Shown here: one piece after another, positions 1-8,300 of the stretch | Numbering within the stretch: the stretch's first letter is position 1 | Layout of the letters: every line of letters starts with the position of its first letter | Assembly: GCA_017965665.1 (NCBI GenBank) | Contig: JAGCPN010000003.1 | Location: forward strand, 1 to 64,000 | Source: Aeriscardovia sp. | GTDB lineage: Bacteria > Actinomycetota > Actinomycetes > Actinomycetales > Bifidobacteriaceae | DNA length: 64,000 nt | Reading direction: 5' to 3' | Notes under the pieces: generated by a model | What the model was told of the DNA's origin: nothing | The model's input: only the letters and a program-made list of their open reading frames with translations | Databases searched by the model: none | Translations under genes and position numbers: made by a program

Positions 1-194
1 ATGAAGCCGCGCTGCTTCTCTTCGGGGGCGGCGTCAATCTGGTCGAACTTGTACTCGGCGTTGACGTCCGGATACTCTTCGTGAAGAACCGTGGAGATGG
101 CCGCGGACAAAGAGGTCTAGCCTAGGACGATGTGCCCAATGGTGCCCACGTTCACGTGCGGCTTGGTGCGCTCGTATTTTGCCTTTTCTGCCAT
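1..194 (-). pseudogene. tuf: Elongation factor Tu, 5' part, with a stop codon in the P-loop
   Basis: Reading the minus strand from the ATG at 194-192, the frame gives an EF-Tu N-terminus ([20 protein letters not shown], then HI). The next residues should be DHGKTT but read V-L-G-stop-T-S: the TAG is at 119-117. After the stop the same frame resumes good EF-Tu sequence ([17 protein letters not shown], later PEEKQRG), so this is a cluster of substitutions and not a frameshift. The window edge then reads G-F-(I or M) where EF-Tu has the invariant GITI. A strong ribosome site (AGGAGG) precedes the ATG. The position after rpsL-rpsG-fusA is the standard tuf locus. As written the gene cannot make EF-Tu. 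It may be a dead second copy, a sequence error near a repeat, or a collapsed assembly. The 3' part lies outside the window. Confidence 0.85.
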
Positions 195-266
195 TAAAGT
201 CCTCCTGGACAACTTATCGCTTCAGGTAAGAAGCTGATCTTATTTTATATTTTGCCTTATCATTAT

Positions 267-294: not shown

Positions 295-2439
295 CTATTC
301 GCCCCTCTGCTGCTTGATGATCTCGTCGGCTATGTTTTTGGGCACCTCGGCGTAGGAATCCATCTGCATGCTGTAGACGGCCCTGCCCTGTGTCTTGGAG
401 CGAAGGTCTCCGATGTATCCGAACATCTCGGCGAGGGGGACCTTGGCATCTATCACCTTCACCCTGGTGGCGTCGGTCATGTTTTCAATCCTTCCGCGCC
501 TGGAGTTGAGATCGCCTATGACGTCGCCCATGTACTCTTCGGGGGTCCTGACTTCGACGGCCATTATCGGCTCGAGGAGTACGGGGTCGGCCTTGAGGGC
601 GGCGCCCTTGAAGGCCATGGAGCCGGCGACCTTGAATGCCAGTTCGGAAGAGTCCACGGGGTGCATCTGTCCGTCTATGAGCTCGGCTTTGACGCCCACC
701 ATGGGGTAGCCCGCCAAAATGCCAGATTCCATCGCTTCCTTGATGCCGGCTTCAACGGAGGGGATGTACTCGGAAGAGATGACGCCTCCGGTGATCTTGT
801 CGACGAAGATGAAGTCCTTGCCCTTCTCGTCGGGATTGTTCTCATCGATGGGCATGAAGTTGAGCTGGACCCTCGCGAACTGGCCGGAGCCTCCGGTCTG
901 CTTCTTGTGGGTGTACTCGAACTCGGGCACCGCCCTCCTTATGGTCTCCCTGTAGGCGACCTGGGGCTTGCCCACGTTGCAGTCCACGTGGAACTCCCTG
1001 CGCATCCTGTCGACGATGATGTCTAGCTGGAGCTCTCCCATTCCGGAAATCAGGGTCTGCCCGCTCTCCTGGTCGGTCTTGACCTGGAAGGTCGGATCCT
1101 CGTCGGCGAGGCGGGCGAGCGCTATCCCCATCTTTTCCTGATCGGCCTTGCTCTTGGGCTCGACGGCGATCTGGATCACGGGGTCGGGGAAGGTCATGGA
1201 CTCCAGGCAGATGGGGTTCTTAGGATCGCAGAGCGTGTCTCCGGTGCCGACGTTCTTCAGGCCCACGAAGGCGTAGATGTTGCCCGCGAAGGCCTCGTCC
1301 ATCGGTATTTCCTTGTTGGAGTGCATCTGGAAGATCTTGCCGACCCTCTCCCTCTTTCCGGAGGTGGAGTTGAGGACGGTGTCTCCCGGTTTGACGGACC
1401 CCGAGTACACCCTCACGTATATGAGCTTTCCGTAGAAGGGGTGGACGGCGATCTTGAAGGCCAGGGCGGAGAAGGGATCGGAGATGACGGGCTTCCTGTC
1501 GATTTCCACGCTCTCGTCTCCGGGTTCGTAGCCTACGATGGCCGGGACGTCCTCGGGGCTGGGCAGGTAGTCCACCACGGCGTCGAGGAGGGGCTGGATG
1601 CCCTTGTCCTTGAAGGCAGAGCCGCAGAAGACCGGGTAGGCGTCGGAGTGTATGGTCAAAGTCCTCACGCCTTCGCGGATTTCCGCTTCGGAAAGCTCGC
1701 CCGTCTCAAAGTACTTGTCCATGAGCTTTTCGTCGGTTTCGGCGGCCGCCTCCACCAGCTCGGTCCTGTACTTTTCGGCCATCTCCATGAGGTCGGCAGG
1801 GACGTCGGTCACTTCGTAGTGGGCGCCCTGGTCGCTCTTCTTCACGTCCCCTTTCCAGAGGTATGCCTTCATCCTCACCAGGTCCACCACGCCGTCGAAG
1901 TCGTTTTCGCTTCCCACCGGGATCTGCATCACCAGGGGGCGCGCTCCGAGCTTGGTCTTGATGGTGTCTACGGAGTAGAAGAAATTGGCCCCGAGCTTGT
2001 CCATCTTGTTGATGAAGCAGATTCTGGGCACTCCGTACTTGTCGGCCTGCCTCCAGACGGTTTCAGACTGTGGCTCCACGCCTTCCTTGGCGTCAAAGAC
2101 CGCCACGGCCCCATCGAGCACCCTGAGGGACCTTTCGACTTCGGCCGTAAAATCGACGTGGCCGGGGGTGTCGATGATGTTTATCTGGAACTGTTCTTCA
2201 GGATCGTGGGTCTGCCTGTTCCAAAAGCAGGTTATGGCGGCGGAAGTGATGGTTATCCCGCGCTCCTTTTCCTGATCCATCCAGTCCATGGTCGAGTCGC
2301 CGTCGTGGGTCTCCCCAATCTTATAGTTGACCCCGGTATAGTACAGGATCCTCTCGGTCGTGGTGGTCTTGCCCGCATCTATGTGGGCCATGATCCCGAT
2401 GTTCCTGATCCTGTTCAAATCAGTGAGCACTTGCGGCAT
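295..2439 (-). CDS. fusA: Elongation factor G
   Basis: EF-G is the ribosomal translocase and acts with RRF in ribosome recycling. The 714-residue length is normal for the bacterial family. The G domain shows AHIDAGKT (residues 18-25), RGITI (60-64), DTPGH (90-94) and NKMD (144-147), so unlike the adjacent tuf its GTPase core is intact. EF-G domains II to V follow through to the C-terminus. It is third in the str operon, 18 bp after rpsG, with a purine-rich ribosome site upstream of the ATG. Identification is secure. Confidence 0.98.
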
Positions 2440-3529: not shown

Positions 3530-4375
3530 ATGAGCAAAATCGACATCTCCAGCGCCGCCTGCTCCGACATAGGCCTGAAGAGGGCCGACAACCAGGATTC
3601 GTACCTCGAAGTCGAGGGGCTCTACCTGGTGGCCGACGGCATGGGCGGGGGAGTGAAGGGCAGGCAGGCCAGCGCCACGTGCATGTCCGTCATGGAGAAG
3701 CTGGGCAACTGCAAAATCCGGACCAAAGGGGAGATCTTAGGCTGCATGCAGGAAGCCCAGGATGTGGTAGGGGAAATCGGGGCCAGGGAAGGCGGAGTGG
3801 CCGGGACCACCCTGAGCGGGCTCATCCTCAAAGACACCGACATGGAGGAAGAGGGAAACGCCTGGTACGTGGTGAACGTGGGCGACTCCAGGACTTACCA
3901 CGTGTGCCCTTCCCCCGAAGGCTTCGACAGGTCCACTTTCGAACAGATCACCCACGACCACTCCGAACAGCAAAAAGCCATCGACACGGGAAAGTACCTG
4001 CCCGAACAGGCCGAAAAGCTCATACCCAGAAACCTGATCACACAGGCCATAGGATCCCCCTCCCCTCTCAATCCCGACTTCTTCAGGGCCGATTTAGGCG
4101 GAAGATTTATAATTTGCTCCGACGGAATCTACACCCAGATGAGTTTGAGCAAGCTGGCGAATCTGTGCTCGGCCTCCAAGAGCCCCAAGGAGGTGGCCCA
4201 CTCGCTGGTGGAGGCAGCCCTCGACGGAGGGGGGAGCGACAACGCCACGGTGCTGGTGGTGGACGTAAAGGCTGAGTGCGGGGGCGGCTGGCTCGTCTCC
4301 AGGCTCTCGCCTGAAGAAGACATAGATTTTATTTCGGACGCCACCATGGAGAACCTCCACGTCCAAAGAGAGTAA
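3530..4375 (+). CDS. PP2C-family serine/threonine protein phosphatase
   Basis: Metal-dependent phosphatase expected to dephosphorylate Ser/Thr-kinase targets in the cytosol. Over 281 residues it shows the PP2C motifs in order: NQD (21-23), VADGMGG (34-40), GTTL (92-95), GDSRTY (118-123), CSDG (196-199) and the terminal DN (237-238), so the metal-binding aspartates are present. There is no transmembrane segment, unlike the membrane-anchored PstP type. An in-frame TAA directly before the ATG fixes the start; the ribosome site (AGAAAGA) is weak. It is followed after 9 bp by the LRV gene, and the pair is transcribed against the flanking str and rpoBC operons. No kinase gene lies in the window, but two FHA proteins do. 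Confidence 0.9.
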   Translation: MSKIDISSAACSDIGLKRADNQDSYLEVEGLYLVADGMGGGVKGRQASATCMSVMEKLGNCKIRTKGEILGCMQEAQDVVGEIGAREGGVAGTTLSGLILKDTDMEEEGNAWYVVNVGDSRTYHVCPSPEGFDRSTFEQITHDHSEQQKAIDTGKYLPEQAEKLIPRNLITQAIGSPSPLNPDFFRADLGGRFIICSDGIYTQMSLSKLANLCSASKSPKEVAHSLVEAALDGGGSDNATVLVVDVKAECGGGWLVSRLSPEEDIDFISDATMENLHVQRE

Positions 4376-4384
4376 GGAGAAAGC

Positions 4385-4837
4385 ATGGTAGATTACGACG
4401 AAGCCTGCCGGGCGGTTCAGGATGAGAACGCCGATCCTTCCCTGCTCGCGCTGATAGCCTATGAAAATCCGGAGTTCGGCCCGAACGTGGCGAGCCACCC
4501 CAGGGCCTATCCCGGCCTTTTGGCCTGGCTCGCGCGCTTCGGAGACGAAAAGACGAAGAAAATCATAATGGAGAGGATCATGACCGAGTCCATCCCGCTC
4601 TCCCCTTCGGCTTTCAAGCAGGAAGAGGGGCCCCTCTACACCCCCGAGCAGGTGATGGAAGTCAAAGACGCCATGATCCAGCACGACATCGCCCAAAACT
4701 TTCCGGAGTTGCGAAAATACCTCGCCCAAAATCCCAACTGCTACCCGGAGCTTTTGGAATGGTTTGAGGGCCTGGACGACCCGGAGGTGCAGGAAGCCCT
4801 CCAAAAGAGGAAGGGGGAGGCTTCCCCTACTCTATAG
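4385..4837 (+). CDS. Variant leucine-rich repeat (LRV) protein
   Basis: A 150-residue protein with two LRV-like units: NPEFGPNVASHPRAYPGLLA near residues 29-48 and FPELRKYLAQNPNCYPELLE near 102-121. Both follow the pattern in which Asn-Pro is followed by Tyr-Pro and a Leu-Leu-x-Trp helix. Such repeats are common in small proteins of bifidobacteria and other actinomycetes, usually with no assigned function. The gene follows the PP2C gene with a good ribosome site (AAGGAGAA) and overlaps the 3' end of the convergent FHA gene by 11 bp. A role as a partner in phosphoprotein signalling is suggested only by position. Confidence 0.75.
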   Translation: MVDYDEACRAVQDENADPSLLALIAYENPEFGPNVASHPRAYPGLLAWLARFGDEKTKKIIMERIMTESIPLSPSAFKQEEGPLYTPEQVMEVKDAMIQHDIAQNFPELRKYLAQNPNCYPELLEWFEGLDDPEVQEALQKRKGEASPTL

Positions 4838-5327
4838 AGACTTCGTAAAACTCGTCCCCCAGCCTGAGCAGCACTCCCCCCTCCAGCTGCACCGGCGCTT
4901 CGGGGGACGCCTTTTTTTCAGTAGAGTCCTTTATTACAAAAGTCCCGTTCAAAGATCCCAGATCTTTCACGTAGGCGTTCTTGTCGCCGTCAAAGTAGAT
5001 GAGGGCGTGGGATCTGGAAATGGTCCTGGTGGGATCTGCCAGTTCCACTTCGGCCCCCCGGCCGTCGGAGGAGGGCTTGCGGCCCAAAACCGAATCCGAG
5101 CTTATGCGGATGATGGAGTTGTTGGAGGTGTTCCTCAAAATCACCGTCCCCCCGGATTTTGCGCCGGCGCCGTGCTTGGGCTCGGAATACCTGCGCGCCG
5201 CCCCCATTCCCGACAGATCCGAGCGGTCAAGGTAGTCGGTGAGCCCGTGCTGCCTGGCCCAGATGCGGTCCTCCGGATACCACCCGAAGGCCGGCGGCTC
5301 CGGGAAAGGCCTGTCCGGCTTTTCCAT
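4827..5327 (-). CDS. FHA-domain protein coupled to rpoC
   Basis: Phosphothreonine-binding adaptor. The first 60 residues are low-complexity and may be flexible; the C-terminal part (about 61-166) is an FHA fold with the GR (82-83), SRSH (104-107) and LNGTF (126-130) signature residues that contact phosphothreonine. A GTG three bases upstream is in frame, but the ATG at 5327 shares its A with the rpoC stop (TGATG). This classical coupling arrangement makes it the likely start. The gene is thus co-transcribed with RNA polymerase and faces the PP2C/LRV pair head on. Confidence 0.85.
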   Translation of the reverse strand: MEKPDRPFPEPPAFGWYPEDRIWARQHGLTDYLDRSDLSGMGAARRYSEPKHGAGAKSGGTVILRNTSNNSIIRISSDSVLGRKPSSDGRGAEVELADPTRTISRSHALIYFDGDKNAYVKDLGSLNGTFVIKDSTEKKASPEAPVQLEGGVLLRLGDEFYEVSIE

Positions 5328-8300
5328 CACTCGTCCATATCCTCTTGGCTGCCGTCGGGAAAGTCATCGGGAGAGGCGTCGGGCTCATCTAGGGGCTCTC
5401 TGTCATCCTCCACTCCGAAGGCTCCGGGATCTTGCGGAGAGAGGATCTCCCCCGCGCCCATATCCTCCCCGAGGTTGTTAAGGTCTACTGCGCTCAGGTC
5501 TACCTGGCTGGCGTCCTCATCTTCATAGAAGGAGGACTTGTCCATGTCGAGGAAGGGGTGGATGCTCGCCTTCACGGCGCTGTTCATGTCCACTTCGCTG
5601 TTTCTGTAACGGCTCAGGCCCGTGCCGGCGGGGATGAGCTTGCCTATGATGACGTTCTCCTTGAGGCCGTTGAGGTTGTCTTCCTTGGTCTGCAGGGCAG
5701 CTTCGGTAAGAACCCTCGTGGTCTCCTGGAAGGAGGCGGCGGAGAGCCAGGAGTCGGTGGCCAGGGCCGCTTTGGTAATGCCCAGGAGGCACTCTCTGGC
5801 AGCCGCCGGCTTGCGGCCCTTCTCGAGTGCGCTTTGCACCGTAGCCGCAAATTCCGCCTTGCTCACAAGATCCCCCGGAAGAAGGGAGGTGTCCCCCGAA
5901 TCCACGATTACGACCTTGTCTACCATCTGGTGGACTATGACCTCTATGTGCTTGTCGTGAATGCCCACGCCCTGGGAGCGGTAGACGTCGTGCACGCCGT
6001 TGACGATGCACTCTTCCGCCGCCCTGGATCCTCGGATCCTGAGAACTTCCTTGGGATCTACGGACCCTTCAATCAGCTGGGTCCCCGCTTCCACCCTCTC
6101 TCCGTCGTGGACCAGCAGCGGGGTCCTCTTGCTGAGGTGGTATTCCTTCTTCTCCCCGTCCTCAGCCGTTATCGTTATCATCCTCTGGCTTCCGGCGTTG
6201 CTAATTTCCACTGTGCCTGCCAGTTCGGTTATGGGCGCCATGCCCCTGGGGGTCCTGGCCTCGAAGAGTTCGGTTACTCGGGGGAGGCCCTGGGTGATGT
6301 CGGAAGCGGAGGCGACGCCGCCGGAGTGGAAGCTGCGCAAAGTGAGCTGGGTGCCGGGCTCGCCTATGGACTGGGCCGCGACCACCCCCACGGCTTCGCC
6401 GATATCGACGAGGGTGTTTGTAGACAGCGACCAGCCGTAGCAGCTCGCGCATACCCCCAGTTTGGATTGGCAGGTCAGAACCGACCTCACCTTCACCTCG
6501 TGGATCCCATGGGCCACGAGGTTCTCTATGGACTGCATGTCGAGCGCCTGCTGGGCGTTCATGAGAAGATCTCCGGTTTCAGGATCGACCACGTCTTCGG
6601 CCAGGAGCCTGGAATAGGCGGAGGCGTCGGCAAACTCGTCCACTTTCCAGTTGCCTTCTTCGTCCTGGGTCGCTATGGGGATGACGATCCCCCTCTTGGT
6701 GCCGCAGTCCTTCTCCCGGATTATCACCTCCTGGGAGACGTCCACCAGCCTTCGGGTCAGGTACCCGGATTCTGCGGTCTTGAGCGCCGTATCCGCCAGG
6801 CCCTTGCGGGCGCCGTGCTGGGAGATGAAGTACTCGAGGGACGAAAGGCCGTCCCTGTAGTTGGATTTCACGGGCCTTGGGATGATTTCGCCTTTGGGGT
6901 TGGTGACCAGGCCCCTCATGCCGGCTATCTGGCGGATCTGCATCCAGTTGCCGCGGGCGCCGGAGCGGACCATGATGTTCAGGTCGTTGTCGGGGGCGAA
7001 GTTATCCTCCATGTCCTCTGCAATCTGGTCCGTGCACGCCGTCCACAGGCTTATGATTTCCTGCCTTCTCTCAAATTCGGTCAGATTGGCCAGGGCGTAG
7101 TATTCCTCGTTTATCTTGTCGGTCCTCGCCTCGTAGTCCTTTATCACGGCCTCTTTCTCGGGCGGGACGTGGATATCGGAGAAGGCGATAGTCACTCCGG
7201 ACCACTGCGCCCTGGTAAAGCCCATGTCCTTTAGGGCGTCCAGGGTGGCGGAGGCCTGGGAGGTGTCATAGCGCAGGGCGATGTCGTCGACGATCTTGGA
7301 AAGGATCTTCTTTGAGACCTGGCAGTTTATGAAGGGGTAGTCCACGGGCAGGCAGGAGTTGAACAGGAGGCGCCCGTAGTTGGTGGCAAACAGGTATCCG
7401 CCGTCTTCCAGCCTCTGTTCTCTAACCTCGCCTCCGGTGGAGGGAACCTTGAGCGTCCCGGGCTCCCAGCCTTTGGGGAGCACAAAGTCCTTGTCCATGC
7501 GGATAAGGACTTTGGACTGCATTCCGATTTGCCCGCGGTCCAGGGCCATCCTGGCCTCTTCCACGCTGCTAAAGATCCTCCCCTGCCCCTTTGCGTCCTC
7601 TATTTCGGGGAACCTTCTCTCCCCGCCGGGGTGCTTGGCATAGTATTTCTGTTTGGCTTCCTCCACTTCCGCCTGCTCTTCGTCGATGGTAGTGGTCAGC
7701 CAGTAGAGGCCGATTATCATGTCCTGGCTGGGCATGGTGACGGTATGTCCGTCGGCGGGCTTGAGGATGCTGTTAGAGGCGAGCATCAGAATCCGGCTCT
7801 CGGCCTGGGCCTCTACGGAAAGCGGAAGGTGCACGGCCATCTGGTCCCCGTCGAAGTCGGCGTTGAACGGAGCGCAGGCGAGCGGGGGAAGGTGTATGGC
7901 CTTGCCTTCCACCAGTATCGGCTCGAAGGCTTCGATGGAGAGCCTGTGGAGGGTCGGGGCGCGGTTTAGGAGCACGGGGTGCTCGTGGATGACTTCTTCA
8001 AGCACATCCCAGACCACAGGATCCATCCTGTCTATGAGCCTCTTGGCGCCCTTGATGTTCGAGACGTACTCGAGTTCCACCAGCCTTCTTATGACGAAGG
8101 GCTTGAAAAGCTCCAGGGCCATGGGCTTGGGCAGGCCGCACTGGTGCATCTTGAGCTCGGGGCCCACGACGATGACAGACCTTCCGGAAAAGTCGACCCT
8201 TTTGCCCAAAAGGTTCTGCCTGAACCTGCCGGCCTTGCCCTTGAGCATCATGGCCAGAGACTTTAGGGGCCTGTTGGAGGCTCCCGTCACGACCTTTCCG

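Follow-up and report, generated by a model that had tools for sequence, protein, structure and literature searches.

EF-Tu is essential, and in the Bifidobacteriaceae, as represented by metagenome-assembled genomes (MAGs) of the genus studied here, it is encoded by a single tuf that follows fusA behind a shared leader. The tuf of G000, the genome under study, has the same position, copy number and leader, and its C-terminal 289 aa are intact. In the G000 assembly, however, it is distributed over two contigs, and the first fragment carries ten aberrant bases near a contig end. The second system for comparison is the contig break in short-read metagenomes. According to excerpts of the COBRA paper, MEGAHIT and metaSPAdes contigs share ends as long as the largest k at graph branches, and one k-list printed there for MEGAHIT ends in 141 (PMC10914622). 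As far as the same excerpts go, the breaks in the COBRA simulation resemble those of G000 in the fixed length of the shared ends (141 nt) and in a break within a gene that is near-identical in related species, but differ in that the last bases at the present contig end are aberrant and not shared. The lesions in tuf are best read as a contig-end artefact in a Bifidobacteriaceae MAG, and not as a natural oddity or a new feature. The placement in this family is based on the labels of the congeners together with the taxonomy entry of Aeriscardovia.

The window, the whole stretch of 64,000 nucleotides that was analysed, corresponds to G000:C3:1-64000, and its base 1 is base 1 of contig C3, a contig end. 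The G000 assembly comprises 784,903 bases in 8 contigs with 16 ends. Read on the minus strand, positions 194-1 hold the first 64 EF-Tu codons. The features of this region were as follows.

1 to 194, minus strand: 5' part of tuf, comprising EF-Tu codons 1-64 plus two bases of codon 65 and ending at the contig end (base 1); PF00009 match with one TAG.
1 to 127, minus strand: error tail with ten aberrant bases, one of which creates the TAG and none of which is synonymous; the next 127 nt inward are without any.
117 to 128, minus strand: altered P-loop codons (V, L, G, stop), namely GTC at 128-126, CTA at 125-123, GGC at 122-120 and TAG at 119-117.
128 to 256, minus strand: clean run of 129 nt, tuf start and leader, exactly as in G004.
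295 to 2439, minus strand: fusA, upstream of tuf and coding for EF-G in an open frame of 714 aa; PF00009 match without stops.

Further into the window, two ORFs were read by eye between rpsL and rpoC, one of them PP2C-phosphatase-like (3530-4375) and the other FHA-like (4827-5330, minus strand).

As deposited, the P-loop reads GHI-V-L-G-stop-T, which is neither GHIDHGKT nor GHVDHGKT, the forms of a functional EF-Tu, but it lies within an unreliable contig end. The original prediction had placed a stop codon and an altered P-loop in the tuf beside fusA, and these are present in the deposited sequence, with four substitutions in the P-loop and no indel; RGITI at the very edge of the window is likewise altered, to RGF. 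The altered codons had been given at 131-120 and actually occupy 128-117, a shift of one codon. A concentration of the changes on catalytic motifs had also been claimed. Instead, the ten aberrant bases are spread across the last 127 nt, at window positions 127, 124, 123, 119, 113, 107, 91, 59, 5, and 1, with four in the P-loop, four elsewhere and two in the edge motif. They alter nine codons (23, 24 twice, 26, 28, 30, 35, 46, 64, and the cut codon 65), and there is no second stop in frame before the contig end. The lesions do exceed chance, as the next 127 nt inward have no difference from the closest congener. When ten random substitutions were simulated in the same 127 nt (20,000 trials), 13.6% of the trials contained no synonymous codon and 33% contained at least one stop; the lesions therefore do not need to have been aimed at catalytic motifs.

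The comparison set consisted of six congeners (G001-G006), which were located via the tuf leader pattern in genome contigs and make up seven genus genomes together with G000. These congeners carry the label Aeriscardovia sp. isolate RGIG and are MAGs obtained from the abomasum of yak, water buffalo and goat. All six have GHIDHGKT, including G006, which has other changes nearby, and none of the ten aberrant bases was found in any of them. The aberrant bases are thus restricted to the contig end and absent from relatives. The last 127 nt of C3 differ from G004, the closest congener, at 11 positions, which are the ten aberrant bases and one synonymous change, and from G001 at the ten sites only. 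Going inward, C3 and G004 have 0 differences at 128-254 and 9-18 per 127 nt in the blocks beyond, which are mostly fusA. The near-identity of tuf and leader to G004 over long stretches (0/127 differences at window positions 128-254 and 1/381 at L010:1-381) could possibly result from strong constraint, recent exchange or cross-assembly. The genus genomes (G000-G006) measure 0.6-0.9 Mb at 87-100% estimated completeness, compared with 1.5-3 Mb for most other listed members of the family, and the genus is a lineage with reduced genomes.

The remainder of the gene was found on another contig. C7:1-870 is an open EF-Tu remainder of 289 aa (NCBIfam NF000766, 469 bits, above cut-off), in which Pfam also recognized GTP_EFTU from profile position 103 onward, D2 and D3, that is, the rest of the G domain and domains 2 and 3. 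This remainder is intact. Adding up C3:1-194 (minus strand), 139 missing nt and C7:1-870 gives 1203 nt (194 + 139 + 870), and the tuf of G002 and that of G003 are equally long. In these two congeners, one contig holds fusA, a tuf of 400 aa and the downstream ORFs that are seen on C7. On the basis of this layout and the 1203-nt sum, C3 and C7 carry the two sides of one ordinary tuf that lacks 139 nt in between. On C7, tuf is followed by ORFs that by eye resemble efp, nusB and an amino-acid antiporter. Downstream of tuf, efp and nusB, L010:2008-4000 contains both this antiporter-like ORF and the beginning of one that resembles glutamate decarboxylase (judged by eye); the pair would be in keeping with acid resistance in the abomasum.

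A real but dead tuf beside fusA, complemented by an unassembled working copy at another genomic site, was considered very unlikely. The 16 ends of the 8 contigs do leave room for a missing second copy. However, the dead duplicate and the second intact tuf that had been proposed were not supported by searches of the assembly. The GTP_EFTU (PF00009) search of G000 gave eight matches, which were the C3 fragment with its one TAG, the fragment at C7:1-291 and six in other places. The DNA search of G000 with the 194 nt gave seven matches at E up to 10, six of which were stretches of 14-19 nt with E of at least 0.46. Thus neither the domain family search nor the DNA search revealed a second copy of the 5' piece in the assembly. 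The tuf 5' end had one match per genome (E up to 1e-20) in 150 of the 151 family genomes, G000 included, and the only genome without a match is 57% complete; a stop inside the match occurred in G000 alone among the 150. In another family genome, G047, tuf lies within a 1.9-Mb contig in two overlapping frames (L111, G047:C1:1554000-1555900), and the frame shifts after VVAATDGP, owing to either a sequencing indel error or a real frameshift.

The selection on the gene also spoke against a dead copy. The C-terminal part starts at C7:1 in the conserved place, followed by the downstream genes of the congeners, and its 290 codons, stop included, show 23 synonymous and 0 nonsynonymous differences from G004. 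The corresponding numbers are 74 and 1 for G003, and 98 and 3 for G002. By these numbers tuf is under ordinary, and strong, purifying selection, and the start of tuf with its leader is identical to that of G004. Because two congeners carry fusA, tuf and the same downstream genes whole, the two fragments were assigned to one locus and not to a dead duplicate.

The ends of the G000 contigs carried marks of the assembly. Among the 16 ends, C1R matches C8R without a single difference for exactly 141 nt before the two diverge, and C4R and C5R behave likewise; shared ends of exactly this length are the mark of a short-read assembler with k=141. A maximum k of 127, which the first lesion at position 127 had suggested, was dropped, since other contig ends share exactly 141 nt. 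In a ruminant gut study of such samples, 150-nt NovaSeq reads were assembled with MEGAHIT v.1.1.1, and single samples also with IDBA-UD (PMC8199421). The labels of the congeners and the 141-nt ends suggest that these MAGs and G000 belong to that study. Two further pairs of ends overlap tail to tail: C1L and C8L share 235 nt with 15 mismatches, whereas the overlap of C4L and C6R has 11 mismatches in 141 nt. By eye on the translations, these overlaps look like natural variant haplotypes and not random errors, and contigs C1 and C8, as well as C4 and C6, may be neighbours in the genome.

The apparent mixing of variants at these two pairs of ends is also what favours another explanation, in which the assembler took a minor real variant of the population, from a strain whose tuf is inactivated or from a chimeric molecule, into the contig end. 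We gave this explanation only a slim chance. The tail equals G001 base for base save the ten bases, while another strain or species should add synonymous changes, and a cell having only such a tuf could not live, EF-Tu being indispensable. The aberrant 33-nt P-loop string was found in one of the seven genus genomes, G000 itself, even when three mismatches were allowed, and its 24-nt core was found in no viral contig.

We are highly confident that the lesions represent erroneous bases, introduced by assembly or sequencing, at the end of a metagenomic contig. The contig end, the split gene, the missing 139 nt, the single locus in congeners, the confinement to the last 127 nt, the intact relatives and the 141-nt shared ends were all observed directly. 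The organism would have one ordinary tuf between fusA and efp, and the short-read assembly would have broken in it because the gene is so highly conserved that related species have identical stretches of it. In four of the six congeners (G001, G004, G005, and G006), a contig also ends inside tuf, at tuf nt 245-290. The exact run shared by the C3 end and G004 is 129 nt (256-128) as deposited and would be 241 nt, above 141, if the lesions were removed, and the first 254 nt of C7 have no difference from G004. Because of these two identities, the true path in a k=141 graph would join that of a G004-like genome, provided that the sample contained one, while a path erroneous from position 127 on would stay unique. 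The last 127 bases of C3 may follow such a path, rare and with errors, instead of the true sequence, with the gene resuming intact 139 nt further on C7. We infer that the assembler retained the aberrant path since the true one would merge with another species, and the wrong bases were probably sequencing errors. The original prediction had also offered a consensus artefact from two collapsed tuf copies; the assembly artefact stands, but not the collapse of two copies of one genome, and a better fit is a contig that ends where its sequence is shared with a related species.

Two observations weigh against the artefact. The first is that four other contig ends lack such a tail. None of C2R, C7R, C7L and C3R, which are four of the 15 other ends, had excess differences from congeners in the last 127 nt. 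C3R differed from G005 at 34 positions in the last 127 nt and at 56 in the next 127 nt, where the relatives are only 68-79% identical and a few errors could hide. The tuf contig ends of the four broken congeners also read normally. The error tail is therefore not general.

The second observation is the bias toward adenine. The base replaced is an adenine at seven of the ten sites, with A to T at six of these (P = 0.005 against uniform errors, in a test picked post hoc), and C at the other three. In two-colour sequencing, the loss of one dye channel would turn A into T or C, but it would not cover all three changes at C. The adenines at seven of the ten changes would also fit targeted mutagenesis, for example by a diversity-generating retroelement, to which we assigned a practically negligible probability. 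No reverse transcriptase domain (PF00078, RVT_1) was found in the assembly, while the same search was positive in 3 of 14 named control genomes. Moreover, G000 contained no second, template-like copy of the stretch, and an essential gene would be an implausible target. A real sub-population of the ruminant abomasum, in which the fusA-linked tuf was inactivated by clustered adenine-biased substitutions and EF-Tu came from a second, unassembled copy, was regarded as extremely unlikely.

Next to no credence was given to recoding, or to a modified EF-Tu that would function despite its altered P-loop and with read-through of the TAG. The lack of a second in-frame stop before the contig end favours this reading. 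On the other hand, the congeners keep the P-loop, and the aberrant string is confined to G000 within the genus. Reading TAG as an amino acid would leave the other replacements in place, namely D to V, H to L and six others, and the changes start only 127 nt from the contig end.

With the lesions read as a contig-end artefact, the biology is unchanged, and the outcome is a caution on contig ends. The final bases of short-read metagenome contigs, here 127 and within one k-mer length of 141, can place a false stop in a gene that is essential, and related species can have their contigs broken in genes as conserved as tuf. Contig ends should therefore be masked in scans for recoding or pseudogenes.
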